IMG/VR virus record: IMGVR_UViG_3300044492_000304
Location: 1 to 39,487 of that record
Strand: one strand, 5' to 3'
Source: a virus
DNA length: 39,487 nt
In this document: piece after piece, positions 2,035-32,443 of the stretch
Layout of the letters: the number at the start of each line of letters is the position of its first letter
How positions within the stretch are numbered: the stretch's first letter is position 1
Program-made: the position numbers and the translations under genes
The notes under the pieces: model-generated
Told to the model about the DNA's origin: nothing
Database searches by the model: none
Seen by the model: only the letters and a program-made list of their open reading frames with translations

Positions 2035-3440
2035 TGGTGCTGCTGACGCACGAGCAGCAGGCCCGCCTGGCGCAGGTCATCCGCCGCTGCAAGCAGGACC
2101 GCTGCGAGTTCAGCCGGGTCTTCTTCGGCAAGGATCTGCGCGAGAGCCCGTGGCAGGTCGACGCGGTCAACATGGGCGGCACCATCTCGACCAAGGTCGC
2201 CGGGCGGCGCTCGGGCAAGACGCTGACGACGACCGTCGAGGCGATGCACGCGCTCGCCACCCAGGCCCGCAAGACGTGGTACGTGACGGGCCCCAGCCTC
2301 GACCAGGCCAGCCTCTACTTCAACGAGATCGAGCAGGCCGCGCAACACCCGAACGGGATGATGGCGGCGCTGCTGGACGGGCCGATCAAGCGCTCGCCGT
2401 TCCCCAGCCTGAAGCTGGTGACGGGCTCCGAGCTACATGCCCGGTCGACCGCTCGAGACGGCGTCTACCTGCGCGGCAAGGGCGCCAACGGCGTCTGCGT
2501 CACCGAGGCCGCCTTCATCAAGGACAAGGTCTACAGCGAGGTCATCCGGGCGATGGTGCTCGACCGGGGCGGCGTCATCCGCCTCGAGAGCACGCCCAAC
2601 GGGCAGAACTACTTCCAGACGCTGCACAACCTGGCCAACGGCGAGCAGCGCGTCCTGCTCGACGGCTCGGGCCGCATCTACACCGACCCGACGCGCTACT
2701 ACCGCACCATCCACGCGACCGTCTTCGACAACCTGGCCGTGCCGCGTGCGGAGATCGAGCGGATCCGCCTCGAGGTGCCCGAGTACGTCTGGCTGGTCGA
2801 GTACCTGGCGCAGTTCGTGGCCGACGAGGAACTGGTCTTCGACTGGGGCCTGCTGGCCGACCTGTTCGATGAGGACTACCACCAGGCACTGGGCCCGGAA
2901 CTGGGCCACCGCTACGTCATCGGCGTCGACCTGGCCCAGGTCCGCGACTACACCGCGATCATCGTCCTCGACGTCACCCGCTGGCCGATCCGCCTGGTGC
3001 GCTGGCTGCACTACCGGGGCAAGCCCTACACGGGTCCAGGCAGCGTCGTCGAGGACGTCAACCTGCTGCGCCGCGACTTCAACAACGCCCGCGTGCTGAT
3101 CGACGCCACCACCGAGCGCGGCGTGGCCGAGAGCGTCGTCGGCGCCGAGGCCTTCACCTTCACCCAGAGCAGCCGCAACGCCATCCTGAGCAACCTGCAG
3201 GTGCTGCTCCAGAACCGCAAGTTCGAGCTACCCGCTGGCTTCACCCGCCTGCGCGACGAGCTACGGGCGCTGCGCCGGGTGCGCAAGGCAGGCAGCCAGA
3301 ATGCGCGCATCGACCACCCGGACGACGGCCACGACGACACCGTGATGAGTCTGGCGCTGGCCGCCTGGCCGCTGCGCGCCACGGTCTCGCCCGGCAGCCG
3401 TGACGCCATCGAGGCGGTCGTCTCGGGGAGCTTCGCCTAA
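2034..3440 (+). CDS. terL: Terminase large subunit (TerL)
   Basis: This 468-residue DNA-packaging motor has an N-terminal ATPase and a C-terminal nuclease. The P-loop is GRRSGKT at residues 57-63 (Lys62). A Walker B-like strand ending VCVTEAAF has its catalytic Glu near 158, and RLESTPNG fits the coupling motif. The RNase H-like nuclease has acidic residues in GVDLAQ (Asp299), LIDATT (Asp357) and GHDDT (Asp434/435). ATG 2034 overlaps the preceding microgene stop; an in-frame GTG at 2013 would lie inside that gene. The length is normal for TerL. The portal gene follows 25 bases downstream. Confidence 0.95.
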   Translation: MVLLTHEQQARLAQVIRRCKQDRCEFSRVFFGKDLRESPWQVDAVNMGGTISTKVAGRRSGKTLTTTVEAMHALATQARKTWYVTGPSLDQASLYFNEIEQAAQHPNGMMAALLDGPIKRSPFPSLKLVTGSELHARSTARDGVYLRGKGANGVCVTEAAFIKDKVYSEVIRAMVLDRGGVIRLESTPNGQNYFQTLHNLANGEQRVLLDGSGRIYTDPTRYYRTIHATVFDNLAVPRAEIERIRLEVPEYVWLVEYLAQFVADEELVFDWGLLADLFDEDYHQALGPELGHRYVIGVDLAQVRDYTAIIVLDVTRWPIRLVRWLHYRGKPYTGPGSVVEDVNLLRRDFNNARVLIDATTERGVAESVVGAEAFTFTQSSRNAILSNLQVLLQNRKFELPAGFTRLRDELRALRRVRKAGSQNARIDHPDDGHDDTVMSLALAAWPLRATVSPGSRDAIEAVVSGSFA

Positions 3441-3465
3441 ACTAGCCGCCGAGGAAGGCCGATCT

Positions 3466-5007
3466 ATGCCGAACCCGATCACGTCGCTGCTGTCTCGAGC
3501 GGCCAATCGTCTGGCCTATGGCGAGACCGACCCCTACGCGCCGCTACGGCACGACGGCGCGGCGATCACGGGCACGGGCTGGTGGCCGAACGCGGGCTCC
3601 AACTTCGACACCTCGCGGGTCGACTACGCTCGAGCGCGCAGGCTCTACCGCAACCAGATTCCGCAGTACAAGCTGGGCGCCCACTTCGCCCGGCCGATCA
3701 TCAACTTCACCGCTGGCTACATCGGCGTGCCGCACTTCAAGAGCAAGGCCGAGGTCGACGAGGCCGACGCGGCGCTCAACGAGTTCGATGAGAAGTTCGT
3801 CTCGACGTTCCTGACGGTCAACCGCAACTGTCTGCGCGACGGCGACGTGTTCCTGCGCCTGGACTACGTCAAGGATCGCTTCAGCGGCCGCCAGCGCTTC
3901 GACATCCGCCTCGAGCATCCCGAGTGGGTCACGCCGCTGCTGGATCCGATCACGGGCGAGTGGGACGCGCTGGTCATCAACCACCCGGTCTACCCGACCA
4001 ACCGGCCCGACAGCCAGGTCCAGCCGAGCTACCTGATCACCGAGACGCTGACCGCCGACACGATCACCGTCAAGGCCGACGAGCGCGCCCCCGCCGACAT
4101 CCGCCTGCGCTACCCGGGCGAGCCGCGCCCGAATCCGTGGGGCTTCATCCCGGTCGTTCACTTCAAGAACGAGCCCGAGGAGAACCAACTCTACGGCTGC
4201 AGCGACCTCGAGCCGCTCGAGCCGCTCCTGCGGGCCTATCACGACACGATGATGGTCGGCAATCAGGGCATCCGCCTGTTCGCCAAGCCCAAAGTCAAGT
4301 TCATCCTGAAGGACGTCAACCGCTTCCTGGCTGACAACTTCCCCGGCTGGAAGCCCGGCCAGCCCGTCGACTTCCAGGGCCATGAGATCTTCCTGCTGAC
4401 CGAGGGCGAGGACTCGAACTACATCACCGCCGAGCCGGGCACCGCTGGCGTGGGCACGCTGCTCGAGTACCTCTTCTACTGCATCGTCCAGAGCAGCCAG
4501 ATCCCCGAGTTCGTCCTGGGCACGGCGGTCGCCTCGAGCCGGGCGAGCGTCGACTCGCAGATGGGGCCGTTCGTCAAGACGGTCGAGCGGAAGCGGATGA
4601 TGTCGACCGACCCGTACGTCGAGACGCACGAGATGTTCCTGGCGATGGCCAGCAAGGCGCCGGGCTTCGACATGCCCGCGCTGCTGACCTACGAGGTCGA
4701 GCCGTCCTGGCCCGAGATCGCCGCCAAGGACGAGGCGGCGGTGGCCGCGACGGTCCTGACGCTGATGCAGGCGATGCAGGTCGGCACGTCGGCCGGGCTG
4801 ATCAGTCTCGAGGGCGCCAACGAGTTCCTCCAGGGCTTTGTCCCGACGATCCTGCCGTGGCTGTCCGAGGGCACCGAGGACGAGCGCCGCCGCGTGCTAT
4901 CCAGTATGGCCTGGCTCGAGCGGGTGCAATCGGGCGGCCTGCCATTCGACGGCGCCGACGTTACCGACGAGACTGACCTCGAGCAGCCGCCAGGCGCCGT
5001 CGCCTGA
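3466..5007 (+). CDS. Portal protein
   Basis: This 513-residue protein would form the dodecameric ring at the capsid vertex through which DNA passes. It follows terL directly. ATG 3466 is preceded by GAGGAAGG at 3451-3458, a good ribosome site. The sequence has the portal pattern: a variable N-terminus, a mixed alpha/beta clip and wing region, then a conserved helical stem (LEPLLRAYHDTMMVGNQGIR) and SSQIPEFVLGTAVASSRAS in the crown-proximal part. The C-terminus is acidic and disordered (DVTDETDLEQPPG). Family assignment rests on pattern and position. Confidence 0.9.
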   Translation: MPNPITSLLSRAANRLAYGETDPYAPLRHDGAAITGTGWWPNAGSNFDTSRVDYARARRLYRNQIPQYKLGAHFARPIINFTAGYIGVPHFKSKAEVDEADAALNEFDEKFVSTFLTVNRNCLRDGDVFLRLDYVKDRFSGRQRFDIRLEHPEWVTPLLDPITGEWDALVINHPVYPTNRPDSQVQPSYLITETLTADTITVKADERAPADIRLRYPGEPRPNPWGFIPVVHFKNEPEENQLYGCSDLEPLEPLLRAYHDTMMVGNQGIRLFAKPKVKFILKDVNRFLADNFPGWKPGQPVDFQGHEIFLLTEGEDSNYITAEPGTAGVGTLLEYLFYCIVQSSQIPEFVLGTAVASSRASVDSQMGPFVKTVERKRMMSTDPYVETHEMFLAMASKAPGFDMPALLTYEVEPSWPEIAAKDEAAVAATVLTLMQAMQVGTSAGLISLEGANEFLQGFVPTILPWLSEGTEDERRRVLSSMAWLERVQSGGLPFDGADVTDETDLEQPPGAVA

Positions 5008-8600: not shown

Positions 8601-11600
8601 CCCGTGCTGGGGCAAGAGTTCGTCAGCCAGTCGGTCGAGCACCTCAAGGCGGGCGACAAGGTCATCTACAAGACGACGGGCGCGGTCATCACGCTCAGCG
8701 CGGACGCCGACCCGAGCAGCGAGTCGCTCTACTTCCTCAACGCGCAGGGCACCCAGGACGTCGTCTACTTCGACGAGGTCAACGTCCACCCCGACTCGTG
8801 GTACGGGCTCAAGGTCGCCAAGGCCAAACACAAGCTCGAGGACTTCGAGACGGGCGATCTGGTCTACATCAACTCGCCCGGCGATCCGTACCACGGCCAG
8901 GCCCTGCCGCTGCTGCACGACCTGGCGGGCTACCTGCCCGACGACTTCGTCGACCTCGAGCTACCCGGCGGGCAGTCGCTGAGCTACTACCTGAAGAACC
9001 TGTCGGCTCGCGTCTCGCCGCCACCTGCGCCGCCCGCCACGGCCGCCGCCCAGGCGCCTGCACCCAAGACGGGCGACACGGTCATCGTCCACCAGCCCAA
9101 CGGCACGTTTCACGGCCTCGAGGTGGTCCTGCTGCAGGACTTGGCCGGGCTGCCACCGACGCACGACGTGCAGGTCAAGGTGCTGACCACCGACGCCAAC
9201 CTGGGCGTCCTGGCGGGCGACACGCTCTACTTCGACGCGGGCCAACTGAAGCCCGCACCGCCGACCGCGCCTGGCGTGCCGCAGCCGGTGCCAGCCCCGG
9301 CGGGGACCGTGGACGTGACCCAGAAGGGCACCAAGGTCACCACCGAGTACAAGGGCCACCCGGTCACGGGCACCGTCCAGTCCTACAACGCAGGCAAAAA
9401 GGTAGTGGTGATCAAACCAGATCAGCCTGTGCCTGGTTTGACGGCCAAGACCTTCACCAAGGCGCCCGCCAAGGTCCAGGCGGTGGTGCCGCTGACGCCC
9501 ACCGCGCTCCTGCCACCGCCACCGCCACCTGCGCCACCACCACCTGTCCAGACGCAGCCGCTGCCGCCGCCGACGCACACCATCGACCACCTGAGCCCGG
9601 GCGACAAGGTCATCATCAACCTGCCTGGCAGCGCCAGCCACGGCCTGGAGGGCACGCTCAAGAGCGGCCAGCAGGGCAGCCAGCATCCGTTCTTCGTCGT
9701 CGACGTCAGCGGCGGCGTGGGCGAGAAGATCTTCCTGAAGAGCGAACTGCTGTCGGTTACCCCGCCGCCGCCGCCGTCACCCGCGACGCCGCAGCAGGTC
9801 GCGCTCGAGCAGATGGTCCAGGGCCACGTGGTCATCGTGAACGCCCCGGGCGCCAGCAACCACGGCTACGAGGCCAAGCTGCTCGATCCAGTGATGGCCA
9901 CCGACGACACCACGGGCGTGCTGCTCGAGATGGTGTCCGGGCCTAACGCCGGGCTGACCTACGTCTACTTCAAGACGCAGCTACTCGCGCCCGGCACGCC
10001 CATCGCGGCCGTCACGCCGCCACCCGCGCCGCCTGCGCCAGCAGGCCCGGCAATGACCGTCACGACCAAGGGCGCCATCGTCACCACGGATTACCAGGGC
10101 ATCCCGGTGACGGCCGTCGTGCTCAGCTACAACGCGGGCAAAAAGGTCGTCAACCTCAAGCCTGTCACGCCCGTGCCGGGCGTCAAAAACAAGTTCACCA
10201 AGGCGCCGGGCAAGGTCACGCTGGTGCCGCAGCCAGGCGTCACCGCCGCGCCTGCGCCACTGACGCCAACGCCCACGCCGCCTGCGCCAGTGGCCGTCCC
10301 AGCGCCGCCTGCGGTGCCCGTGCTGCCACCCGGCCAGGCGGCCACCCAGGGCCAGCCTGCCAAGTCGCCCACGAGCATGCAGGTCACGCACCAGCCCGTC
10401 GGCGGCGGTCACCAGAAGACCATCTACAAGGCGCCCGACGGCACGACGTGGATGTTCAAGCCCGACGTCAACGCGGCTCGCGCCGAGCAGGCTGGCTACA
10501 ACGTCCAGACGCTGCTGGGGCTGCCGACGCCCGAGCTACACGTCATCAGCCACAACGGCCAGGTCGGCTCCTTTCAGCAGTTCCACCAGGGCATCAAGGG
10601 TGAGGTGACGCTGTCGGGCATCAAGAACCTGACCACCGCCCAGCGCGCCCAGATCCAGCAGCATCAGGTCGTTGACTGGCTCATCAGCCAGCACGACTCG
10701 AACGAGGGCGCCATGCTGATCGGCGCCAACGACGAGATCCTGGCCATCGACAAAGGCCAGGCCTTCAAGTTCCTGCTCACCCCCGGCGAGAAGCTGCACT
10801 GGACCTACAAGCCGAACCCCAACCAACTGGTCTATCAGCCGCTCTTCGAGGGCTACATCGGCAACAAGTTCCAACTCGAGCGGAGCGCCATCGAGCCGAT
10901 CCTGCAGAAGATCGAGGCGCTCAGCGACGACGACTTCAAGGCGGCCATCAAGCCCTACGTCGATCACGCCGTGGCCCAGGGCTTCGCGCCCAACGAGGCC
11001 GCGATCTACACCAAGCTGCTGGCCCGCAAGGCCTCGCTCCGGGCCGACTTCGACAAGCTGTACGACCAGGCCGACGCCGCCGCTGGCCGCTCGAGCGGAC
11101 CCTCGCTGCGCCAGGCGACGACCGCGCCGCCTGCGCCACCCGCGCCCGCGCCACCAGCCGCCACCGCCACCTCGACAGGCGCGTCGGCCAATCAGGTCAC
11201 GCCGATCACGCCGCAACTGGCGGCCGAGGTCAAGCGCGCTGGCACGCACGGCAAGTCGATCATGGTCGCGGGCAGCGACATCGAGAGCGGCACCGTCCAC
11301 CTCTACCAGATGCCCGTCACGGGCGATGGCACCAAGCTAGTCATCTCGACCAAGGTCCGTGCCGATGGCGAGACCAAGCTAAAGCAGCACCTCGAGGGCC
11401 TGCCCGCCAACGCGGCCACCGGGCCTGGCGCGTCAGCCTCGTCGTCCTCGAGCTACAGCCCGGCGCCCGCCGCCGACCCGCACTGGGTCAAGATCCTCAC
11501 CGCCCTGAAGCACGTCGGCTCGCATACGTCCGCGACGGGCGATCAGCAGGTGACCAAGGTGGCCGACCTGATCAGCCTGGCCAACGACATCAAGAACAAC

Positions 11601-13055
11601 TCGCTGGGCTGGACCGGGCAGAAGAGCGCCTACTACGCCGACATGCTCCAGAAGATCACGGGGCACAGCGTGGCCGAGGTGGCCGTCATGACGCAGGCCG
11701 ACCTGGCGGCCAAGATGCTGACGCTGTGGGCGGGCAACGCGGCGATGCACAGCCAGGTGTTCAGCGAGTACACGCCACCGCCACCACCACCACCGACGCC
11801 CACGGCAGCGGCCGCGCCCGTCGCGCCACCACCACCGACAGGCAAGTTCCAGGCGCGGCAGGCAGCGCCGAGCCAGCTAGCCCGGCGCCTGGTCGATGGC
11901 GAACTGGTGACCGATGGCGTCAGCCGCACGGTCGGCGGCAGCCTGGGCATCGCCGGGCACCACCAGTGGATCGTCGACGACCTGGGCGGCGGCATGAAGC
12001 TCGAGTACATGCCGCACTACGGCCCCGCGTTCTCGCCAGCGCAAGGCAGCGGCCCGTCGCAACCGCACACGTCGGTCAACCCCTACGCTCGCCAGGGCAA
12101 GCTCGAGATCACGCTCGACAACTGGCAGGGCACGCACACCGAGATCGAGGCCGCGCTGCACAAGCTGGGCGAACTGGGCCTCGAGGCGGCGCCCGCGACG
12201 CCCGAGGATGTCGAACTGCTGTACCTCGTCCATCAGGTTCACGCCATGAAGCTCGAGGCCACGGCCAAGTACACCACGCTGCGGGCGGGCATCAACGACT
12301 CGACACCGCTCAGCGAGCAGATCGCCAAGCACCAGAAGTACCTCAGTCAGGAGCTTGGCCAGGACGTTACCAAGATGCCGTCGTACAACCCCGTGCCGCA
12401 GTTCGGCACGGGCTACCGCACGGTCGGCGCCAACGGTCACGAGGTCATCCCCGAGGTCGGCAAGCCGTTCTTCGAGCGCTTCGACATCACTCGCCAGGAT
12501 CTCGAGACCAATCTTCCGCAGCGCGTCCTGACACACGACTCGCAGATGGGCACAGCGCGCTTCCTCGAGACGCTGCTCGCGGGCAACGGCACGATGACCA
12601 ACACCGAGGAGCGCGTCCGCCAGGCGCTGTACGATCCGAGCGCGGCGATGTCGAGCAGCACCGACATGTTCAGCGGCGGCGCCAGCTACTTCTTCACCCG
12701 CCTGGCGCGGGTCAACCACGGCGAAGGCAGTCGAGGCGCGTTCTGGTTCAATACGGAACTGCTGCTGCGGACCGACGCGATTGCCTACAACACCGACCTG
12801 TACGGCCAGTCTGACCCGGCGATGAAGAAGAAGCGCCACGCCACGCTGGACGACTGGGCCACCAAGCAGCACGTGCGCAGCAACAACGAGGTCATCATCA
12901 AGAACGGCTTCGGGATGCTCGACTATCTCGAGCGCATCAGCGCCTCGTCGGCCACCGAGCGCAACAAGTTCATCAAGATGTTCAAGGATCGCGGCATCAC
13001 CCACATTCGCGGCAAGCCCGTCGAGGACATCGTCAAGCTGGGCTACAACCCGTGA
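5625..13055 (+). CDS. Giant MuF minor head protein with kinase-like and possible ADP-ribosyltransferase domains
   Basis: This 2476-residue protein starts at GTG 5625. Residues about 205-280 match the MuF (SPP1 gp7-like) minor head domain: MRVARTEMQNSF, then DICDTY, then HPHCFC. Residues about 330-1535 hold many beta modules joined by Pro-rich linkers. Residues about 1585-1810 resemble HipA/PI4-kinase folds: Lys1612 in TWMFKP, HDSN (Asp1691, Asn1693) as catalytic loop, and ILAIDKGQAF with Asp1709. The usual Asn five residues after the catalytic Asp is absent, so activity is uncertain. The last ~130 residues (GGASYFFTR, LLLRTD with Arg2382, NNEVIIKN with Glu2422) may be an ADP-ribosyltransferase; this is tentative. 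MuF position next to portal suggests packaging inside the head and ejection with DNA. Confidence 0.85.
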   Translation: MPPQPTNSEIYAKSLVDAREAWAKQSGLTQAQVKSAYGQAAASLGSRVAALPPSAPSSAWNLGQLQQVISDYGNTLDQRVLDAMYAGIQASFHDSADSVLKSKASAAFGSVFGPEAVDAHVRDVNQRAAAAYMTRTGKDGIKLSDRVWKTNAQWRQATQEVVQNAVIAGQPPVQVARQIEQYLKPGVNVPYKAETAKRLHVPKDTSMPAMRVARTEMQNSFHEGTISSHGSMPSYLGIEWHIATGLGHEADICDTYAAQGFFPKGTEPAKPHPHCFCTALPIHRSSDDVLNDLDEWLAQPASHPELEAYYQQIKPILDVEIASVAGAAGGSLLGGHAKGDKVLIDVKGTQVIATVVGEHVTKGVLTLQVDPGQGMASIKVWRAPSKVVAYTGPPTPPVPLAAVPPNPLVSPFGGLAVGHVVYATAGQHLGKVGWVQGTKASNGTLDVLWEDGSSNWVVHQNLQMAPTPTVTPAVGLQVKLNMPEQALLHNQIATITKVESGDLLTLNVTVNNQPFEFNLEPTSLFKLAEVPLPPQIPGSPAPVVAPPPAPPIIGYVDSPGHPQHGAPVTQILPNETVQFADGSFGYGLDATFDISPGPPPGTPHAPPPPPAPAPVTPPPVPAGFQIGDQVQVNDALSEHHGKTGVIDNETGVILFVKLAEGTIIAIPKLYAATNLLPASTVPPPPAQTVPQAVNQVPQLGNINHLYTGHYVTVYDPGGPHDGKSYQLVEDVDLIGPQGTVVLWEDAAHTKEIYLNKDKLYDPTLPLVDLVPLARPLAKLEDLVTGDQAVYMPTGDTVWLGDTPHTAISGQVMVYPSKAAYDAGTGGTLAENTDLDPVPGTLVHAEKPLHQLGVGAKVVVNDPGSNWHGKEVTLNYPTFGLYGGSTVAVTDASGAMTTLKLNELTTVWQMTATSAPGQIMPAPGPKPLNAHTTGDLVMVKPGIGIDHGGQVVELITPLVGALAHEYITVKLGDGSSAVVNADDLAVVPPLPTTPVLGQEFVSQSVEHLKAGDKVIYKTTGAVITLSADADPSSESLYFLNAQGTQDVVYFDEVNVHPDSWYGLKVAKAKHKLEDFETGDLVYINSPGDPYHGQALPLLHDLAGYLPDDFVDLELPGGQSLSYYLKNLSARVSPPPAPPATAAAQAPAPKTGDTVIVHQPNGTFHGLEVVLLQDLAGLPPTHDVQVKVLTTDANLGVLAGDTLYFDAGQLKPAPPTAPGVPQPVPAPAGTVDVTQKGTKVTTEYKGHPVTGTVQSYNAGKKVVVIKPDQPVPGLTAKTFTKAPAKVQAVVPLTPTALLPPPPPPAPPPPVQTQPLPPPTHTIDHLSPGDKVIINLPGSASHGLEGTLKSGQQGSQHPFFVVDVSGGVGEKIFLKSELLSVTPPPPPSPATPQQVALEQMVQGHVVIVNAPGASNHGYEAKLLDPVMATDDTTGVLLEMVSGPNAGLTYVYFKTQLLAPGTPIAAVTPPPAPPAPAGPAMTVTTKGAIVTTDYQGIPVTAVVLSYNAGKKVVNLKPVTPVPGVKNKFTKAPGKVTLVPQPGVTAAPAPLTPTPTPPAPVAVPAPPAVPVLPPGQAATQGQPAKSPTSMQVTHQPVGGGHQKTIYKAPDGTTWMFKPDVNAARAEQAGYNVQTLLGLPTPELHVISHNGQVGSFQQFHQGIKGEVTLSGIKNLTTAQRAQIQQHQVVDWLISQHDSNEGAMLIGANDEILAIDKGQAFKFLLTPGEKLHWTYKPNPNQLVYQPLFEGYIGNKFQLERSAIEPILQKIEALSDDDFKAAIKPYVDHAVAQGFAPNEAAIYTKLLARKASLRADFDKLYDQADAAAGRSSGPSLRQATTAPPAPPAPAPPAATATSTGASANQVTPITPQLAAEVKRAGTHGKSIMVAGSDIESGTVHLYQMPVTGDGTKLVISTKVRADGETKLKQHLEGLPANAATGPGASASSSSSYSPAPAADPHWVKILTALKHVGSHTSATGDQQVTKVADLISLANDIKNNSLGWTGQKSAYYADMLQKITGHSVAEVAVMTQADLAAKMLTLWAGNAAMHSQVFSEYTPPPPPPPTPTAAAAPVAPPPPTGKFQARQAAPSQLARRLVDGELVTDGVSRTVGGSLGIAGHHQWIVDDLGGGMKLEYMPHYGPAFSPAQGSGPSQPHTSVNPYARQGKLEITLDNWQGTHTEIEAALHKLGELGLEAAPATPEDVELLYLVHQVHAMKLEATAKYTTLRAGINDSTPLSEQIAKHQKYLSQELGQDVTKMPSYNPVPQFGTGYRTVGANGHEVIPEVGKPFFERFDITRQDLETNLPQRVLTHDSQMGTARFLETLLAGNGTMTNTEERVRQALYDPSAAMSSSTDMFSGGASYFFTRLARVNHGEGSRGAFWFNTELLLRTDAIAYNTDLYGQSDPAMKKKRHATLDDWATKQHVRSNNEVIIKNGFGMLDYLERISASSATERNKFIKMFKDRGITHIRGKPVEDIVKLGYNP
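7281..9880 (+). repeat. Array of diverged beta modules with PG..HG motif in the MuF protein
   Basis: At least nine modules carry a hydrophobic strand followed by a turn of the form PGxxxHG or close to it, for example VDSPGHPQHG, VNDPGSNWHG, INSPGDPYHG, HQPNGTFHG, NLPGSASHG and NAPGASNHG. The pattern GDxVxVxxPG resembles small SH3/KOW-like barrels. The units are diverged at the DNA level and separated by Pro/Ala linkers. Confidence 0.7.
9309..10230 (+). repeat. Duplicated ~57-residue module in the MuF protein
   Basis: Bases about 9309-9485 and 10051-10230 encode near-copies. Both have VTTxY-type starts, then SYNAGKKVV, then PVPG, then FTKAPxKV. They are the most similar pair in the array, so this looks like the latest duplication. 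The copies flank two PG..HG modules, suggesting a multi-module block was copied. Confidence 0.75.
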
Positions 13056-15371: not shown

Positions 15372-15569
15372 GATCCGCGCCTGGCCCTCGCGGGTGAGCG
15401 CCAGGTTGCGGAACAGGTCGCGCTCCGCGATCAGGTCGCGGCGCTCCGTCTCGAGCGCCTCGATGTGCTTGCTCTTGGCGCCGACGAGCGATTTGAGCAG
15501 GAACGTGATGGTGCCGATCAGCGCGCCGATGATGGTGCCGATGGTGACGACGTCCGCGCCGACCTCCAT
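15360..15569 (-). CDS. Membrane protein with coiled-coil tail (minus strand)
   Basis: The minus-strand ATG at 15569 shares one base with the stop of the upstream minus gene (TGATG), so the two are coupled. The 69-residue product has a membrane helix (VVTIGTIIGALIGTITFLL) then a charged helix with heptad-like spacing (KHIEALETERRDLIAERDLF). This topology resembles XhlA-type or spanin-like lysis accessories. The gene tail overlaps the convergent + gene by 12 bases. Longer upstream extension in the same frame is Asp/Ala-rich and overlaps the stalk gene, so I rejected it. Confidence 0.7.
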   Translation of the reverse strand: MEVGADVVTIGTIIGALIGTITFLLKSLVGAKSKHIEALETERRDLIAERDLFRNLALTREGQARISDG

Positions 15570-16678
15570 CAGGGCAACCCCACGCCTGGCGTCGGCAGTG
15601 GCCTGAGCGTCGGCAGTGGCCTGAGCGTCGGGCGCGGCGGCCGCGTCGGCTGCCCGATTGGTGTCGGCGTGACCGTCGGCGTCCGACACTCCGGGCGGTT
15701 ATTGCCGTTGGCGCAGGGATCGGTCGTCGGTGTCGCCTGTGGCGCGGTCGGCGCGGTCGGCCTGGGCGTGCTCGACGGCGCCTGTGTTGGCGTGGGCGTC
15801 GCTGGGACGCGGCTGGGCGTACCTGTGGCGCTGGCCGACGCAGTGGCCGTGCTGGGCGGCGCCGTTGGCGCAGGCGTGGCTGGCGGCAGCGTGGGGGTGC
15901 CCGGAGCGGTTACGCTCGCAGGCGTGGTTGGTGTTGGCGATTGCGCACCGTCGTCGCCGCCACCGCCACCGCTGGCCGGGTGCCTGGGCGCAGCTACGCT
16001 GGGTGTCCCGGTCGGTGTTGGCGTGACCGTTGGCTCTGGCGAGCGGCGCACTGGTGAAGTGGGACTCACCGTCGCGCTGGGCGACAGGCCAGCGGGCGCG
16101 GTCGGCAAGGCGGTCATCGTCGGCCCCGAGGTGGCCGTTGGCGCAGGACTGGGCGCATCGAGGACTTCCTCCTCCGGGACGTCTTCGGACTCAGGCTCGA
16201 GGTCAGGCGCGGCCACGGCGGGCGGCGGCGCAGGCCGCGCCTGGATCGGCGCGGGCCGGGGCTTCACGGCGGGCGGCGGCAGGCCCGGGCGAGCCTGAGA
16301 CGCCTGGCTGGCGGCGACCGCGAGGCCCGGGTCGGCGGCGGACTCGAGGGTCGGCGCGGGCGCTGGTGGCGGCTCGAGCGTCGCGGTCGCCGCCAGCGGG
16401 CTGGCCGTCGCTGGCGCACTGGTGGTGGGTGGTGGTGCCGTACTAGTCGGCAGGGCGACGGCGGTGGGCGCATTGGCCGTCGCCGCCAGGTCGGCCAGGC
16501 TGGTGTTCAGCAGTTCGGTCGATGGGTGGATCGGCGCAACGGTCACCTCGAGGCCTGGCGTCGCCAGCGCGCCCGGCGAGCGCGCCTGCATGATGTCAGG
16601 CCCGAGCGACGTGGCGACAAGTGCCCCGGACAGTCCGCCAGCCAGGATGTAGACGGCGCACTGCGCATAGAAGTTCAT
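15569..16678 (-). CDS. Membrane-anchored Thr/Pro-rich stalk protein (minus strand)
   Basis: The minus-strand ATG is at 16678. The 369-residue product begins with a membrane or signal-anchor helix (CAVYILAGGLSGALVATSLG). Nearly all the rest is Pro, Thr, Ala and Ser, with PTPTPT-type stretches, one acidic patch (EPESEDVPEEEV) and a short Cys pair near the end (DPCANGNNRPECR). It looks like a long extended extracellular stalk without a globular tip. Such Thr-Pro stalks are frequent in Chloroflexota secreted proteins. Minus-strand start, overlap with the next gene and strong bias support it as real. Confidence 0.75.
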   Translation of the reverse strand: MNFYAQCAVYILAGGLSGALVATSLGPDIMQARSPGALATPGLEVTVAPIHPSTELLNTSLADLAATANAPTAVALPTSTAPPPTTSAPATASPLAATATLEPPPAPAPTLESAADPGLAVAASQASQARPGLPPPAVKPRPAPIQARPAPPPAVAAPDLEPESEDVPEEEVLDAPSPAPTATSGPTMTALPTAPAGLSPSATVSPTSPVRRSPEPTVTPTPTGTPSVAAPRHPASGGGGGDDGAQSPTPTTPASVTAPGTPTLPPATPAPTAPPSTATASASATGTPSRVPATPTPTQAPSSTPRPTAPTAPQATPTTDPCANGNNRPECRTPTVTPTPIGQPTRPPRPTLRPLPTLRPLPTPGVGLP

Positions 16679-17687: not shown

Positions 17688-19331
17688 GTGGCCTTCAGGA
17701 TCAATCGCACGCGGGTCTCGACCCGGCCCTGGAGCGAGGCCGAGGAACTCGCCATCCGCGAGCGCCTGGCCAACGCGCCTGACGAGGCCGCGAGTCACGA
17801 GGTGTACGCCACGCGGCTCGCGTCCGGGTCGCACTGGGGCGCGCACCACGAGGTCTCGAGCGACGGCGAGATCATCCTCAACCGCCAGGCGCTGCAGGAC
17901 ACGGTCGCCACGCTGGGCGACCTGGGCGAGGCTGAGCGGACGGTCGCCATCCGCCACCTGAGCCAGCACTTCGTCGAGCACGACCTGCCGCTGCCCGAGG
18001 GCTTCGTCGCTCGAGCGGGCGAGATGCACGTCCTGGCAGGCATCGTGGGCGAGATGGCGCCGCGAGACATCCCGCTGTCGACCGCCTTCACCGAGGCCGA
18101 ACGGCAGCACCTGCTCAAGGGCGACGACGACCCGATGGAGGTGGTCATCGAGATTGCCCCGGGCAAGTCGTCACGCGGCTGGAACTACACGCCGCAGGCG
18201 CTCCAGAAGATGGTCACCCATGTCCAGGCGCACACGCTGGCAGGCATCAAGGGCCACCAGCGCGACGAGGACGTCGCCAGTCAGTTTGTGGACCCGGCCA
18301 CGCACTGGATCGGCGCCGTCTGGCAGAACGACAAGGCCTACTTCCGGGGCGTCATCGACAAGACCGCGCCCGATCTGAAGCGATGGATCCGGGCCAAGCG
18401 CATCACGCAGCCCAGCATCTTCACGCGACCCGTGATCACTCGGGTTGGCGGCGAGACGCAAGTGGTCGACCTCGAGCCGCTGGGCATCGACTGGGCGCCG
18501 CTCGACCGAGCCGGGATGAACACCGCTCGCGTCGTCGCCTGGGGCGAAATGGATGCCATCGGCGGCGAGCCGTTCGAGAGCCGGGCGCCGATGGACGGCG
18601 ACCACATCCCAACTCAAGTGAGGAGTCCGGGTCATATGACAACCGTGCGAGAAGCGCTCGACGCGCTGCGTGAAAATGGCGCGACCGCCAGTCAGGTCAT
18701 GCAGGCGATGAACTGGCGCGCCGTTGACGTGCTGCCGGGATTGCTGGCCAGCGACCGCCGAGGCGTGGCCGAGGGCCTCGACCAGGCGACGTTGGCGCAC
18801 GTCGCGGCGGGTGAGATGGCCCGAGCGCATCGGCCGCAGGAACTGCTGCAGGGCCTGGGGCTCGACCTGGCGGCCGTGGCGCCGCTGGTCGACGAGGCGC
18901 AGTGGAAGCGGCTGCAGGCCAGCGACCTGGCCGTGGGCGAGATGCGCGGCGCGCTGGGCTTGCCCGAGACCGCCGACGCCGCCGCCGTCCGCACCCGCGT
19001 CAGCGACCTGCTGACAGCGGTCCAGACGACCTCGCAGCAGGCGCTGCGAACCAGCGTCGAGAGTATCGTCGCTCGCGGCGAGATGGCCGTGCCCACGGCG
19101 GTGCGCCCGCTGGTCACCTCGACCGCGCTGCTCGAGCTACAGCCCGGCGCGGACGAGGCGGCGATCAAGGTCGCCATCGGCAAGGCCAAGACGGCCCCGG
19201 AGATCAAGCCGATCCTCGAGGCCGGGCTGCTCAGCGCGCCCATTCGGCCGACCTCGAGCGGCGTCGCAGGTGAGATGCATAGCGGCGGCCAAGAGGCTGT
19301 CGGACTGCCGCTGCGGCGGCGGTCGATCTGA
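17688..19331 (+). CDS. Capsid maturation protease fused to scaffold
   Basis: This 547-residue protein starts at GTG 17688, 5 bases after the previous stop. Residues about 128-290 look like a prohead serine protease of the herpesvirus/T4 gp21-like type: MEVVIEIAPGKSSRGW, then His190 in IKGHQRDED, then Ser243 in QPSIFTRP, then LEPLGIDWAPLDRAGMNTAR. The His-Ser spacing of 53 fits the family. Residues about 310-547 are helical and charged, as in scaffolds. The tripeptide Gly-Glu-Met occurs seven times, with Glu at 112, 122, 287, 376, 418, 465 and 529. Two of these flank the protease domain and four divide the scaffold. They are probably self-cleavage sites (inference). Confidence 0.85.
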   Translation: MAFRINRTRVSTRPWSEAEELAIRERLANAPDEAASHEVYATRLASGSHWGAHHEVSSDGEIILNRQALQDTVATLGDLGEAERTVAIRHLSQHFVEHDLPLPEGFVARAGEMHVLAGIVGEMAPRDIPLSTAFTEAERQHLLKGDDDPMEVVIEIAPGKSSRGWNYTPQALQKMVTHVQAHTLAGIKGHQRDEDVASQFVDPATHWIGAVWQNDKAYFRGVIDKTAPDLKRWIRAKRITQPSIFTRPVITRVGGETQVVDLEPLGIDWAPLDRAGMNTARVVAWGEMDAIGGEPFESRAPMDGDHIPTQVRSPGHMTTVREALDALRENGATASQVMQAMNWRAVDVLPGLLASDRRGVAEGLDQATLAHVAAGEMARAHRPQELLQGLGLDLAAVAPLVDEAQWKRLQASDLAVGEMRGALGLPETADAAAVRTRVSDLLTAVQTTSQQALRTSVESIVARGEMAVPTAVRPLVTSTALLELQPGADEAAIKVAIGKAKTAPEIKPILEAGLLSAPIRPTSSGVAGEMHSGGQEAVGLPLRRRSI

Positions 19332-19360
19332 GCTAGCCAGGAGAGGAGGACCAGCTACCA

Positions 19361-19735
19361 ATGGCAAATTCCAATGGCCACAAGATGGCCGATGGCCTGA
19401 GCGTTGACGTCACCGTACCCAACGGCACGGTCGTGGCGCAGGGCGAGTTCGTGTATCTCGACGGCTTCTTCGGCCTGGCTGAGTTCGATGACAAGCCCAC
19501 GTCGGCAGGCGCGGCGATCATCTCGATCAACATCGAGCAGGCCAACTACGACACCGATCAGATCACGACCGCCGAGGCCTATGCGGTGGGCGACGTCGTC
19601 AACTTCAACACGGCGACCAAGCTGTTCACCAAGGCGGCGGTCTCGGGCTCCATCCTGCCTGTCGGCCGGGTGACCATCGCCAAGAATGCCGACAACGTGA
19701 TCGGCTTCCTGCTGCTCCCCCAGCGGCTGGCCTGA
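19361..19735 (+). CDS. Capsid decoration protein (DUF2190-like)
   Basis: ATG 19361 has GGAGAGGAGG ending 11-12 bases upstream. The 124-residue product is all-beta looking and fits the DUF2190 head-decoration type: VVAQGEFVYLDGFFGLAEFD, then AYAVGDVVNFNTATKLFTKA, then a final strand NVIGFLLLPQRLA. Such proteins bind the outside of mature HK97-fold capsids. It lies between the protease-scaffold gene and the major capsid gene, the standard place. The family name is from memory of the pattern. Confidence 0.8.
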   Translation: MANSNGHKMADGLSVDVTVPNGTVVAQGEFVYLDGFFGLAEFDDKPTSAGAAIISINIEQANYDTDQITTAEAYAVGDVVNFNTATKLFTKAAVSGSILPVGRVTIAKNADNVIGFLLLPQRLA

Positions 19736-19749
19736 AGGAGGACTGAGGG

Positions 19750-20841
19750 ATGCCGATCACCATCGTCGACGCGCCCACGCTGCGCGCTGCGCGCCGTCAG
19801 GGCAACCACAGCTACACCGCCCAGGCGACGATCTGGGACCGCCCGCTCGAGGTGCCGATCAACATCGCCAGCGGCGAGATGGACACCTACGACCTCAACC
19901 GCCCGGTGCGCGAGTACCTGGCGACGCTCAGCGCCCGCCCCACGGCAGGCGAGATCATCGCCACGCCACCCAACCTGGCGCAGTTCGTCACCAAGACCGT
20001 CGTCGACCTGAACCTGGGTCGCGAGCAGGTGCCGCTGCTGTACCCGGCGGTGTACACGCGGACCATCACCGACGCCAACCTGACCGAGAACGTCGATGTC
20101 GGCGCGATCATGGCGCGGGCGTCGGTCGTCTTCCTCCAGCACATGGAGGGCGGCGAGGTCCGCTTCGGCACCCGCACGCTCACGCCCCGGCAGACCGTGC
20201 CGCTGGTTACCTACGCGGCGGGCTTCGAGTACACCGAGGATCTGGTCGAGTACGACAAGACCTGGGAGATCAGCCAACTCAACGAGGCACTGGGCCGGGC
20301 CTACAACGCGCTGCTCAACCACATCCACCTGTACCCGATCATCAGCTACACCTACGCCGCCAAGAACCAGACCCCGGCGGACGCCACGGGCAGCACCTTC
20401 CGCGAGAAGATGCGCGCCACGCTCAAGGCGGGCCTGATCCACTCGGGCAGCGACGTGGCGACCGACACGGGCCTGGGCCGCTCGCCCAACGTGCTCCTGG
20501 CGCACTCGAGCCGCAGGTGGGACATCGAAGAGGCGCTCCAGCGGTTCGTCGTCTCGGGCACCGAGTACCCGGCGCTGGCAGGCATCGATACGCTCGTCTT
20601 CTACGACGGCTACTCGATCACCGTGGGCTCGCGGAAGTACGTCTACCCCGGCGTGCCGACCAACAAGGCCTACCTCGTCGACACCAGCACCTACCTGATC
20701 GAACTCGTCAAGCACGACCTGCGGACCGACGCGGGCGTGGGCGACCTGAGCCGCCTGATCCAGCAGCAGATCGTTTCTCGCGCACGTCGGGGCGTCTTTG
20801 TGTCGCCACCCAACTGCGTCGAGGAAGTGACGCTGCCGTAA
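19750..20841 (+). CDS. Major capsid protein (HK97 fold)
   Basis: This 363-residue protein starts at ATG 19750, with AAGGAGG about 7 bases upstream. Its position after protease and decoration genes and its length fit the major capsid protein. Recognisable elements are a helix with PNLAQFVTKTVVDLN, an E-loop-like region, a long central helix around NALLNHIHLYPI, and a C-terminal domain with RFVVSGTEYPALAG. Residues 42-44 are Gly-Glu-Met, the tripeptide repeated in the protease-scaffold. Cleavage after Glu43 would remove a short N-terminal segment, a common maturation step. The mature N-terminus would then be MDTYDLNRP. Confidence 0.9.
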   Translation: MPITIVDAPTLRAARRQGNHSYTAQATIWDRPLEVPINIASGEMDTYDLNRPVREYLATLSARPTAGEIIATPPNLAQFVTKTVVDLNLGREQVPLLYPAVYTRTITDANLTENVDVGAIMARASVVFLQHMEGGEVRFGTRTLTPRQTVPLVTYAAGFEYTEDLVEYDKTWEISQLNEALGRAYNALLNHIHLYPIISYTYAAKNQTPADATGSTFREKMRATLKAGLIHSGSDVATDTGLGRSPNVLLAHSSRRWDIEEALQRFVVSGTEYPALAGIDTLVFYDGYSITVGSRKYVYPGVPTNKAYLVDTSTYLIELVKHDLRTDAGVGDLSRLIQQQIVSRARRGVFVSPPNCVEEVTLP

Positions 20842-26991: not shown

Positions 26992-27066
26992 GTGGCCGCG
27001 CTACAGATGCGTCCAGGCCAGCCGATGGTCGATCCTGAAGATCGCCTGGTTCGTTACCCCGTCTGA
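26992..27066 (+). CDS. Microprotein upstream of the tape measure (24 aa)
   Basis: GTG 26992 directly follows TAG 26991, and the frame ends at TGA 27066, sharing a base with the tape-measure ATG (TGATG). It reads VAALQMRPGQPMVDPEDRLV and then RYPV. It may be a true small protein or just a coupling device for tape-measure translation. Two in-frame ATGs inside offer shorter starts. Confidence 0.4.
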   Translation: MAALQMRPGQPMVDPEDRLVRYPV

Positions 27067-30002
27067 TGGCCTCACAAATTTATCACGAGGTGATTCAGGT
27101 CGAGGTCCGCGACCAGTCGCAGGCCGCGCTCAACAACGTCCAAAAGAACGTCGAGAAGACCGAGAAGGATCTGAATCGGATCTCGAAGAGCCCCTACAGC
27201 ATCGTCGTCAAGATGACCGACATGCTGACGCGGCCGTTCGGGCAGGTGCTGAATGCGGCGCGAGCGCTGGCCGGGCGGGCGCTGGCGGTGCCCGTGACGA
27301 TGGTCAACCGCATCACGGCGCCGTTCCGCAACCTGATGAGCGGCCTGCGCGAGCAGGGCAACCAGATGGTCCTGGGCATCGGCCAGGGTCTCGGCCAGGC
27401 GCTGCTCAACGTCGCCGGGCAGGGCATCGCCACGGTCAAGGGCTCGATCATCGGCATGAACGCGACGCTCGAGACGAGCACGCTGCAGTTCGAGACGCTG
27501 ATGGGCGACGCCGACGCGGCGCGCAAGCACGTCCAAGACTTGTTTCAGTTCGCCAAGGAGACGCCTTTCGAGACGCAGCCGATCATCAACGCCAGCCGCA
27601 TGATGCGGACCTTCGGCGGCGGCGCGCTCGACACGATGGCCAACATGACCCTCTTCGGTGACGCGGCCGCCGCCACGGGCTCGAACATCGAGGAGGTCGG
27701 CTTCTGGATGGGCCGCGCCTATGCCGCGATCCAGGCGGGCCAGCCGTTCGGTGAAGCACGAATGCGGCTGCAGGAACTGGCCATCATCTCGCCGCAGGCG
27801 GCCCAGAAGATCGAGGCCCTCGAGAAGGCTGGCGCCAAGGGCGACGTCGTCTGGCAGGCCTTCAGCGGCGACCTGGCCCGGTTCACGGGCGCCATGGCCA
27901 AGCAGGCCAAGACGTGGACGGGCCTGACCAGTTCGCTGAGCGATGCCATCGCGATCACCAGCGCCAAGATGTTCGAGCCGCTCTTCGAGGTCGCCAAGAC
28001 GGTCGCGGGCGACCTGCTCGACACGCTCTCGAGCGCTGACTTCGAGGCCTGGGCCGATGACGCGGGCAAAGGCATCGCCAAGTTCGTCGAGAACGCGGGC
28101 AAAGGCTTCGGCCAAATGGTCCACGGCATCCGCGCCATTCAGACCGCCTTCAGCGGCCAGCCCGGGGCCATCGGTGTCGTCTACGACCTGATCCGCGAGA
28201 CGTTTGGCGACTCGGTGGGCGACATCGTCCAGCCCTTCCTGCAGAAGCTGATGGACTTCATTCCGACGCTCAACCACGTCGGCACGCTGATCGGCCAGGC
28301 CTTCGGCTCGCTGGCCAAGGGCGACGTGCGCGGCATGCTGATGGACCTCACCCTGGCCTTCACCACGCTGACCGGGATCAGCCTGGCGGGCCTGGTGACG
28401 TGGGTGACGAAATTCGGTGACGCCATCGGCGCCTGGCTGCCGACGGTCACCGCTACATTGCCCCGGCTGCAGACGCTGGCGGGCGACGTGCTGGTCAACC
28501 TGGGGCGGGCCTTCCAGAACATCGTCGGGATCATCACTGACGTCGCCGGGATGACGAGCGGCGGCGGCGTCGGCGGCGGCGTGATCGACTGGTTCGGCCT
28601 GCTGAGCACCATCATCCTGAGCGCCACAAAGGCCTTCGCGGACCTGACGGGCTGGATCCGCGAGAACAAGACGGTCGTCGTGGCGCTGGTCGGCGCGGGC
28701 GTCACGCTGGTCGCCATCCTGAAGGCCATCCAGGGCGCCATCGGCGTGATCAGCTTCTTCAAGCAGGCCTACGATGCGCTGCAGATTCTGCGCACGGGCA
28801 TCCTGGCGGTGCGCGGCGCGATGCTGCTGATGAACGCGGCCCTGCTGGCCAACCCGTTCGCGCTGATCGTCGTCGCCATCGCCGCCTTCATCGCCATCCT
28901 CGTCTACGCCTACAACACCAACGAGGACTTCCGAAACTTCGTCAACGCGGCGTGGGAGGCGATCAAGAACGCCATCTCGGGCGCCTGGGACGCCATCCAG
29001 CCGATCCTCGAGAACTTCGGCCAGGCGGTCATGGCGCTGTGGACCGACACCATCAAGCCCGCCATCGATGGCATCGTCCAACTCTGGCAAGACCTGCACA
29101 CCGACACGCTGGGCACGCTCAACAAGCTCAAGGCAGGCCTGCTCGAGATCGGCACGGGCATGATGAATAACCTGATCGCGGGCATCCAGAGCGTCGACGT
29201 GCTGGGCTGGATTCGGACCAACGTCACCGACAAGATCCCGGCCGAGGTCAAGAACGTCCTGGGCATCCACAGCCCGTCGGGCGTCTTCGCGGACATCGGT
29301 AACAGCCTGATGCAGGGCCTGATCAACGGCCTGACGGCGCGCTTGCCAGATGTCCAGGCCTTCCTGGCCGGGCTGGGCGGCATGTTCGGCGGCGCCGACG
29401 TCGGCGGGTGGATCTCGGCGGCCATCGCCGCGACGGGCGTGCCTGCCTCGTGGGCGGTGCCGCTCAGCCAGATCATCCAGGGCGAGTCGGGCGGCAACCC
29501 GCTGGCGGCCAACCTGACCGACGTCAACGCCAAGGCGGGCAACGCCAGCGTCGGCCTGATGCAGCTAACGGGCACCAACCGGGCGCAGTACACCCCGGCA
29601 GGCATGGATCCGATGGATCCGATTGCCCAGATCATCGCGGGCATCCGCTACATCCAGGCGCGCTACGGCGATATCAGCGCCGTGCCGGGCGTGCGCAGCC
29701 TGGCGAGCGGCGGCGCCTACCAACCGTATGACAGCGGCGGCATCCTGCCGCCAGGCCTGACGCTGGCGGCCAACAACACGGGCGGCAACGAGTTTGTGCT
29801 GACGCCGGGGCAGATGCGCGGCCTGGGCTCGAGCGTCGTCTTCGCGCCCGTGTTCGAGATCGATGCGCGAGGCGCCGCGCCAGGCGTGGGCGAGGAGGTC
29901 TCGGCGGCCGTCGAGGCCGAATCGAGCCGCCTGTTCAGCCTGCTGGGCAGCCAGCTTCGGGTCGCCTTCGGCAACCTGGCGCTCGAGGGCGGCGCGACGT
30001 GA
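27066..30002 (+). CDS. Tape measure protein with C-terminal transglycosylase domain
   Basis: At 978 residues this is the longest gene of the tail core. The N-terminal part is helical with coiled-coil character (SQAALNNVQKNVEKTEKDLN), followed by a conserved tape-measure region (LETSTLQFETLMGDADAARK, FQFAKETPFETQPI). Hydrophobic segments in the middle (VVALVGAGVTLVAILKAI, then LLANPFALIVVAIAAFIAIL) could insert into the host membrane. Residues about 790-870 form an SLT-type transglycosylase domain: IIQGESGGNPLAANL with Glu807, then NASVGLMQLTG. It sets tail length and locally opens peptidoglycan. Confidence 0.92.
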   Translation: MASQIYHEVIQVEVRDQSQAALNNVQKNVEKTEKDLNRISKSPYSIVVKMTDMLTRPFGQVLNAARALAGRALAVPVTMVNRITAPFRNLMSGLREQGNQMVLGIGQGLGQALLNVAGQGIATVKGSIIGMNATLETSTLQFETLMGDADAARKHVQDLFQFAKETPFETQPIINASRMMRTFGGGALDTMANMTLFGDAAAATGSNIEEVGFWMGRAYAAIQAGQPFGEARMRLQELAIISPQAAQKIEALEKAGAKGDVVWQAFSGDLARFTGAMAKQAKTWTGLTSSLSDAIAITSAKMFEPLFEVAKTVAGDLLDTLSSADFEAWADDAGKGIAKFVENAGKGFGQMVHGIRAIQTAFSGQPGAIGVVYDLIRETFGDSVGDIVQPFLQKLMDFIPTLNHVGTLIGQAFGSLAKGDVRGMLMDLTLAFTTLTGISLAGLVTWVTKFGDAIGAWLPTVTATLPRLQTLAGDVLVNLGRAFQNIVGIITDVAGMTSGGGVGGGVIDWFGLLSTIILSATKAFADLTGWIRENKTVVVALVGAGVTLVAILKAIQGAIGVISFFKQAYDALQILRTGILAVRGAMLLMNAALLANPFALIVVAIAAFIAILVYAYNTNEDFRNFVNAAWEAIKNAISGAWDAIQPILENFGQAVMALWTDTIKPAIDGIVQLWQDLHTDTLGTLNKLKAGLLEIGTGMMNNLIAGIQSVDVLGWIRTNVTDKIPAEVKNVLGIHSPSGVFADIGNSLMQGLINGLTARLPDVQAFLAGLGGMFGGADVGGWISAAIAATGVPASWAVPLSQIIQGESGGNPLAANLTDVNAKAGNASVGLMQLTGTNRAQYTPAGMDPMDPIAQIIAGIRYIQARYGDISAVPGVRSLASGGAYQPYDSGGILPPGLTLAANNTGGNEFVLTPGQMRGLGSSVVFAPVFEIDARGAAPGVGEEVSAAVEAESSRLFSLLGSQLRVAFGNLALEGGAT

Positions 30003-30775: not shown

Positions 30776-32443
30776 GTGTCGGTCATCCCCGAGGAGATCC
30801 TGGCGCTGCTCGACCGGGCGGTCCAGCCCGATCCCGAGCCCAGCGTCACGCTCGCCCGGCCCACGCTCGACGACCTGGCGACAACGCGCTACACGCTCGC
30901 GCTGAGCAGCCCCATCGATGCCAAGCTGCGCCACATCCCGTATGTCAGCCTGAGCTTCGAACAGCAGGAGGGCGAGGTCGCCACGCGCCTGACGGCCTCG
31001 ATCCCGGACGTCGACAGCGACCTGGGCCCGCTCTGGGAACTGTGCCGCATGGGCACGCCGCTGTTCCTGCTGAGCGGCCAGAGCAGGCTGGTCGAGATGT
31101 TTCGCGGCCAGATCGTCGAGGTGGGCGACCGCACCACCAATGGCGGCGCCTTCGGCCTCATGGCCTACGACGGGCTGCACAACGCGCTGCGGTCCAAATA
31201 CGACCTCATCATCGGCACCGACACGACCATCAGCGAGATCGTCAGGCAGTACTGCGCCAAGGCGCAGGTCGAGACGGGCTACATCGAGGAGCCGGGCGTC
31301 AAGCTGGGGCCGCAGATCTTTCGCCAGGACACGATGATCGATGGCCTGACCAAGGCGCTCAAGCAGGTCGCCAGCAAGGGCGGCGGCATCCTCAAGCTGC
31401 GCGCCGTGCAGGGCAAGCTCGAGTTAGTTCGCCCGGCCAACAACCCGGCCATCTACCACTTCCGCACGGGCGGCACGGCGGTGTCGACCACGATCAAAGG
31501 CAGCATCGCGGACATGATCAACAGTGTCGTCGTCATGGGCCACGGCGCCGACGACGAGCAACTGCCCGTGCTGAAGACCATCTCGAGCGACGCGGGCTTC
31601 AACGGCGCGCAGGAGATGGTCTATATGGCCGAGGCCGACTCCGACGAGGCCGTTCGCCTCGAGGCCGAGTCGATCCTGGCCGAGAAGGGCTTCCCCGTCT
31701 GGACCTACTCGCACACGGGCTTCGCGGTGCCGGGCATCTACAAGTGGGAGCGCGTCCACATCACCGACGGCATCGTCGACAACCACTTCATCATCTCGGG
31801 CCTGAGCATGGATCTGGTCGCCCGGACGATGCAGATGAGCCTGCTGACGACCGAGGACATCGCTCGAGCGACGCGCCAGATCGAGATCGAGGTGGCCCTC
31901 GAGAAGCTCAAGGCGACCGAGACCGCCACGGACAAGGACACGACCAAGAGCACGGCCACGGGCGTGGCGCTGATCAAGCAGGCGGCCAAGAGCGTCATGG
32001 GCCTGGCCTACGTCCTGGGCGGCGCGGGCGGCCGCAGCGACTTCAGCGCCGACATGCACCACGTCGGCACCGACTGCTCGGGCTTCGTCTCGTGGATCAC
32101 CAAGCGCCTGGGCGGCAGCACGGGCACGACCACCGACGCCATCGCCAGCGCCAGCACGCTGATCCAGACCAACGGCACCGACCAGGCCAAGCCCGGCGAC
32201 TACATCCTGTACTGGGACGGCGGCGCCTCGCAGGCAGGCATGGCCTATCCGCACGTGGCGATGTGGCTGGGTGGCGGCCAGGTCATCGAATCAGGCGGCA
32301 GCACCAAGCCCTCGAGCATCGGCATCGGCACGCTGCTGACGGGCTATCCACGCTATGAGGTGCGACGCAACGAGGCGGTCTTCCAGAAGGTCAACGCGAC
32401 ACCCGCCAAGGCGACCTCGACCACCAAGAAGTCGCGAGTCTGA
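30776..32443 (+). CDS. Baseplate hub protein fused to NlpC/P60 peptidase
   Basis: GTG 30776 follows the preceding TGA directly. Residues 1-370 resemble XkdQ/gpD-like hub proteins ([20 protein letters not shown], then [11 protein letters not shown], then [13 protein letters not shown], then [20 protein letters not shown]). After a charged linker, residues about 400-540 form an NlpC/P60 domain with Cys434 in [12 protein letters not shown], His493 in [18 protein letters not shown], and [10 protein letters not shown]-like [13 protein letters not shown] between them. The enzyme would cut peptidoglycan stem peptides during penetration. A hub with a built-in endopeptidase is known in other phages but is a useful marker. 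Confidence 0.88.

Follow-up and report, generated by a model that had tools for sequence, protein, structure and literature searches.

We asked why one tripeptide, Gly-Glu-Met (GEM), recurs in two neighbouring head genes of a viral contig, and whether it could mark cleavage sites used in head maturation. The window, a 39,487-base IMG/VR virus contig analysed over its whole length, carries terminase, portal, MuF-type head, protease-scaffold, cement, capsid and contractile-tail genes. A preliminary description had placed GEM seven times in a fused protease-scaffold and once at residues 42-44 of the major capsid protein, with the second and third copies flanking a predicted protease domain. Our count reproduced these positions exactly (Table 1), and the flanking arrangement was confirmed, the edge sites also being kept across relatives. 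About 0.1 copies had been expected in the protease-scaffold, and its composition gives 0.088. A six-frame scan of the window gave eight GEM within real genes, none of them outside the protease-scaffold and capsid genes, and two further copies, both in antisense frames. We consider it highly probable that the fused, gp21-like protease-scaffold cuts between Glu and Met at [V/I/A/L]-x-G-E-M, and in doing so frees itself, dices the scaffold and shortens the capsid protein in two steps, at E43 and then E68, and in most relatives also the portal. The pattern of the motif itself makes GEM very likely a cleavage code. The observations that underlie this reading are the recurrence of the motif, its conservation and where it is placed, its coordinated change from GEM to SEM, the fold similarity of the protease, and the alignment of its Ser and His residues.

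Both proteins matched profiles of the phiCD27-like phrog_3219/phrog_3116 head family. In profile searches, phrog_3219, whose function is listed as unknown, aligned with residues 111-291 of the 547-aa protein (E 1.6e-70), which is the interval from the first GEM pair to the third site, and phrog_3116 covered the full length of the capsid protein (E 1.2e-101). The order of portal, head morphogenesis, protease-scaffold, decoration and capsid genes is as in this family, with additional genes in the window separating the MuF-type gene from the protease-scaffold. Annotated relatives include Clostridioides phage phiCD27, Bacillus phages BalMu-1 and BSP7/BSTP, and Weizmannia phage Youna2. The phiCD27 capsid protein (orf7) is identical to phiCD508 gp49, whose capsid structure has been solved.

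Table 1. Head-gene features of the window, with predicted cleavage sites (positions count from the first base of the window).
Feature	Position	Strand	Remarks
Portal protein	3400..5007	+	phrog_64, E 8e-28
Fused prohead protease-scaffold	17688..19331	+	547 aa, GTG start, phrog_3219; ORF call, profile match, AlphaFold2 model
GEM residues 111-113, predicted cut after E112	18018..18026	+	N-terminal domain/protease junction; linker 110-120 with pLDDT<50
GEM residues 121-123, predicted cut after E122	18048..18056	+	N-terminal edge of protease domain
Protease domain, residues 123-287	18054..18548	+	GEM on each side; Foldseek and HHalign
H190, putative catalytic His	18255..18257	+	invariant in 42 sequences; aligned with T4 gp21 H85
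S243, putative catalytic Ser	18414..18416	+	invariant in 42 sequences; aligned with T4 gp21 S140
D268, candidate third catalytic residue	18489..18491	+	invariant; 2 columns off T4 D168, beside a gap
GEM residues 286-288, predicted cut after E287	18543..18551	+	C-terminal edge of protease domain
GEM residues 375-377, predicted cut after E376	18810..18818	+	scaffold; stretch 355-381 with pLDDT<50
GEM residues 417-419, predicted cut after E418	18936..18944	+	scaffold, within predicted helix
GEM residues 464-466, predicted cut after E465	19077..19085	+	loop joining scaffold helices
GEM residues 528-530, predicted cut after E529	19269..19277	+	would free basic C-terminal tail
18-residue C-terminal tail, possibly capsid-binding	19275..19328	+	ends GLPLRRRSI; basic tail common in family
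Cement/decoration protein	19361..19735	+	GEM-free; Pfam Phage_cement_2, E 1.5e-7
Major capsid protein	19750..20841	+	363 aa, phrog_3116; homologue of phiCD508 gp49 (PDB 9GAY)
Capsid site 1, GEM residues 42-44, predicted cut after E43	19873..19881	+	conserved site
Capsid site 2, GEI residues 67-69, predicted cut after E68	19948..19956	+	predicted final maturation site, then IIATPP

An AlphaFold2 model of the protease-scaffold, built on 42 homologues, showed two confidently predicted domains, the N-terminal one and the protease, together with a helical scaffold. The protease sequence matched nothing in the PDB, and T4 gp21 was found by fold search only: Foldseek returned it as the best match to the protease domain (5JBL; E 6.5e-4, prob 1.00), followed by herpesvirus assemblins. 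When gp21 was compared as a single sequence the similarity was weak, and HHalign of the window's protease family against the gp21 family gave E 1.8e-4 once gp21 relatives had been added. The T4 gp21 residues that align with the putative catalytic His and Ser, H85 and S140, are also invariant within the gp21 family. None of the Pfam protease models matched any of the 42 family members at E<=1, none of the NCBIfam protease models matched the protease-scaffold, and the Peptidase_S78 model (HK97-type prohead protease) did not match the window protease. Since there was no Pfam S77-type sequence match, we do not place the domain as an S77 member; as modelled, residues 123-287 appear to be a distant homologue of the T4 gp21/herpesvirus assemblin serine proteases. 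Enzymes of the gp21 type cleave after Glu, in the motifs L/I-X-E, S/A-X-E or A-X-E (PMC9026906, PMC10052503, PMC5694885). The L/I-X-E motif of T4 is not matched here, where the motif is [VIAL]-x-G/S-E-M, and the invariant Glu in this common motif suggests that the window protease would likewise cut after Glu. Most of the GEM sites of the protease-scaffold fall in low-confidence linkers of the AlphaFold2 model. GEM 417-419 lies in a predicted helix, which counts against the cleavage reading, as do the offset of D268 from T4 D168, the lack of a Pfam protease match and a window portal in which no site was found.

To follow the motif beyond the window, we assembled 87 dereplicated protease-scaffold/capsid pairs from IMG/VR, GTDB genomes and phage records. 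Their scaffolds contain 392 GEM against 8.9 expected, a 44-fold enrichment, and 60 SEM against 5.4 expected, and Glu-Met is never preceded by Asp, Ile, Trp, His, Tyr or Cys. Position P4 favours V/I/A/L and P3 V/A/T/I. Sites avoid the protease domains (7 in 13,566 residues, versus 435 in 23,892 outside them) and gather at their borders, with a site two residues ahead of the domain in 53/85 relatives and one 4-6 residues past it in 74/85. The last scaffold site lies 45 residues or less from the C-terminus in 61/85, and in 64/85 the net charge of the C-terminal 15 residues is +2 or higher. In the capsid proteins, 157 GEM/SEM fall within the 7,743 residues of the N-terminal arms and none within the 23,354 residues of the cores. 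The remaining ORFs of these loci together have 42 sites in 207,091 residues, never two per ORF, so that their site density is 0.2 per 1000 aa, versus 11.9 in the protease-scaffolds and 5.05 in the capsid proteins.

Where GEM has been replaced, scaffold and capsid protein both show a like replacement (SEM, partly GEL), and so do those portals that have a site. A sister clade (L213-L252) has lost GEM; most of its members carry 3-5 copies of SEM in the scaffold, and SEM also occupies the capsid arm (for example VISEM and PVSEM in L213/L214) and, as a SEM-type code, the portal N-terminus where a site exists. One sub-lineage within this SEM clade has GEM in the scaffold and GEM, AEM or NEM in the capsid arm. 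On a tree of capsid cores, the scaffold and capsid codes each change twice, together; two independent switches do not allow a test of significance, and both go in the expected direction. No pair among the 87 keeps protease and capsid while the motif is gone, the pattern that the preliminary description had named as contrary to its reading. We think it likely that one code, [VIAL]-x-(G/S)-E-M cut before Met, serves a widespread group of phages with fused protease-scaffolds in freeing the protease, dissolving the scaffold and trimming capsid and portal, and that one lineage shifted its P2 preference from Gly to Ser, with a return toward Gly in a sub-lineage, jointly with the substrates. If true, genomes would here record the natural co-evolution of a viral protease with all of its sites.

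Two sites stand in the capsid arm. At the first, about three quarters of the 87 aligned capsid proteins carry GEM/SEM or a near variant of it. The second, AGEI in the window, was overlooked by the preliminary description and is the better conserved: xE[M/L/I] occurs there in 87/87, P2 is Gly in 69 proteins, Ser in 9 and one of Arg, Lys and Gln in the remaining 9, and the distance to the conserved G90 is 21 or 23 residues in all 87. Its P2 residue tracks the clade, being Gly in 65/71 G-code pairs and Ser in 7/14 S-code pairs. Mean column entropy of the capsid alignment is 2.48 bits at residues 1-41 and 0.53 at 67-68, and two relatives (L132, L139) that are without the first site keep the second. 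Of the 345 residues of the phiCD508 capsid protein, the deposited chains contain no more than 287. Cleavage at the site-2 equivalent (E55) would leave 290 residues and at the site-1 equivalent 302, so that the chain lengths, compared by residue count alone, are consistent with a site-2 cut.

From this pattern of conservation, the mature capsid protein probably begins at I69 (IIATPP, 32.6 kDa), not at M44 (MDTYD, 35.4 kDa). Because E68 is universal and nearer the core, the cut at E43 more probably serves as an intermediate step or to fragment the propeptide. The idea of a shared code cut after Glu has stood in that the code is kept and co-varies in homologous pairs, whereas the capsid end-point at E43, with its MDTYD terminus, gives way to the universal AGE/IIATPP site closer to the core. 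A cleavage code that is real but ends at E43, with residues 67-69 conserved for structural reasons, would draw on the prevalence of site 1 and on the better fit of the window's GEM than of its GEI to the scaffold consensus. The universality of site 2, a P2 that mostly follows the clade code, the retention of site 2 in L132 and L139 and the short phiCD508 chains all speak against such an end-point, which we regard as unlikely. In the predicted capsid model, residues 1-40 form a small confident helix and hairpin, which would suit an assembly domain that is removed later.

The portal may be a third substrate in relatives, a point that the preliminary description had missed. Most relatives' portals begin with 10-25 variable residues followed by (A/I/V)-x-GE(M/I)-S-K-L-R. 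Among complete G-code portals, 37/45 have GE[M/I] within the first 50 residues; SE[M/I] is found there in 3/7 S-code portals, and there is no crossing between codes. Portal N-termini hold 41 sites in 2,650 residues versus 20 in 24,314 in the remainder of the portals. Neither GE[M/I] nor SE[M/I] was found in the first 50 residues of this window's portal. SPN3US also cleaves its portal (PMC10052503).

We infer the cutting itself, its position after Glu, its order and the departure of the fragments from the head. In the prohead, the protease would cut both flanks of its own domain (residues 123-287) and become an 18 kDa free enzyme. The scaffold would be diced into pieces of ~9.4, 4.5, 4.9 and 6.4 kDa, small enough to exit, and a cut after E529 would detach the basic 18-residue C-terminal tail, which by analogy may bind the capsid. 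The capsid arm would be trimmed at E43 and finally at E68, yielding a mature protein of ~32.6 kDa, and in most relatives roughly the first 10-25 portal residues would also be removed.

Were GEM a docking motif between scaffold copies and the capsid arm, bound and not cleaved, a co-varying motif common to scaffold, capsid and portal would be expected as well. Docking does not account for sites that border the protease domain on each side and lie in disordered linkers, for the match of P1 Glu to gp21-type specificity, or for the absence of the motif from folded domains, and we judge it very unlikely. Still less probable is that GGN-GAR-ATG acts as a translational signal for internal starts. Each GEM does hold an in-frame ATG behind a purine-rich stretch, and T4 gene 21 has a second, internal start (PMC9026906). 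However, Gly and Glu are encoded at the sites as they are elsewhere in these genes, without any bias toward GGA or GGG, and the constraint therefore acts on the protein; this largely refutes internal starts. The preferences at P4 and P3 are likewise at the protein level, and internal starts leave the GEI/GEL/SEM variants and fixed capsid position unaccounted for. Chance or internal sequence duplication, which accounts only for the existence of repeats, has practically no probability, being refuted by shuffles of the protease-scaffold (four or more GEM in 0/20,000) and by flanks that carry little information past P5 and P3' (~0.1-0.3 bits), so that no longer unit was duplicated.

The cleavage reading places the window beside several known systems. 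In T4 (gp21/gp22/gp23, S77), the assemblin-type fold and the aligned His and Ser are alike, as are cleavage after Glu in a short motif, dicing of the scaffold and removal of the capsid N-terminus (PMC9026906), which we would expect here. The T4 motif is L/I-X-E, with its preference at P3, whereas the sites here have Gly/Ser at P2, Met at P1' and a hydrophobic P4, and T4 protease and scaffold are separate genes, unlike the one fused protein of the window. The distant gp21 homologues phiKZ gp175 and SPN3US gp245 also cut after Glu, and their substrates are the capsid, the portal and the protease's own C-terminus (PMC10052503, PMC5694885). The SPN3US protease prefers Val at P4, as do the sites here. 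These two systems differ in their motifs (S/A-X-E and A-X-E), in the many ejected internal proteins that are cut, and in a protease that is not fused to a scaffold of the window's kind.

In herpesviruses, UL26-type protease and scaffold are made as one precursor, with a release site past the protease and another near a short C-terminal tail, and the assemblins cut Ala-Ser bonds. Besides the fold matches of the protease, the layout of C-terminal site and basic tail is much alike in the window; the herpesvirus capsid protein, in contrast, is untrimmed, and the system described here has as many as 9 sites, with a further domain N-terminal to the protease.

The phiCD508/phiCD27 head (gp47 protease, gp48, gp49) has the protein families and gene order of the window, with five GEM in the protease-scaffold and three in the capsid protein, and differs in the absence of the window's 110-residue N-terminal domain. 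The phiCD508 structure paper names gp47 as capsid protease, reports no cleavage or motif, and calls gp46 the capsid scaffold (PMC11948020). By gene order, the gp46 counterpart is phiCD27 orf4 (L023:3459-4466), which matches MuF-type families (phrog_1657). It may be the C-terminal part of gp47, not gp46, that serves as scaffold in phiCD508. We found neither a published GEM motif nor phiCD27 N-terminal data in the literature searched, which lay outside the original phiCD27 paper. That paper, reportedly Mayer et al. 2008, could already contain the mature capsid N-terminus.

Head maturation in the window is very likely of the gp21 type, with a motif of its own and with protease and scaffold fused into one protein; the phage family concerned is large and mostly unannotated. 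This offers a function for two PHROG families listed as unknown (phrog_3219 and phrog_3116), whose members are currently named hypothetical protein, transcriptional regulator or repressor cI in databases. Since the virion structure of the C. difficile phage phiCD508 has been solved, the predicted cleavage can be checked in existing mass-spectrometry or density data. Dozens of enzyme-substrate sets with naturally shifted specificity would also be useful for learning how a protease and its sites change jointly.

Several further features of these loci were observed. Two protease-scaffold homologues, H6 (MW354669.1 706-1314) and H9 (MH707430.1 10531-11139), are labelled repressor protein cI and putative transcriptional regulator, names that look wrong. 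In two others (L017:3675-5468 and L018:3728-5467), the protease domain and scaffold are separated by a long insertion rich in Gly, Ser and Asn. The MuF-type protein of the window (2,476 aa; 5625-13055) has, in its N-terminal part, a head-morphogenesis domain resembling MuF/SPP1 gp7 (phrog_1657, residues 9-314), followed by ~2,150 residues without any family match; its phiCD27 counterpart has only 335 aa. It is GEM-free and therefore probably not processed, and we rejected processing of this, the decoration and other window proteins, as GEM occurs in none of them. Past the MuF-type gene and ahead of the head genes, the minus strand carries a Pro/Thr-rich 369-aa ORF (15569-16678), for which a family match was sought and none found, adjoined by smaller minus-strand ORFs. 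Further along, a tape-measure-like protein with an SLT transglycosylase domain (27066-30002) is followed downstream by a protein with collagen-like repeats (32443-33636).
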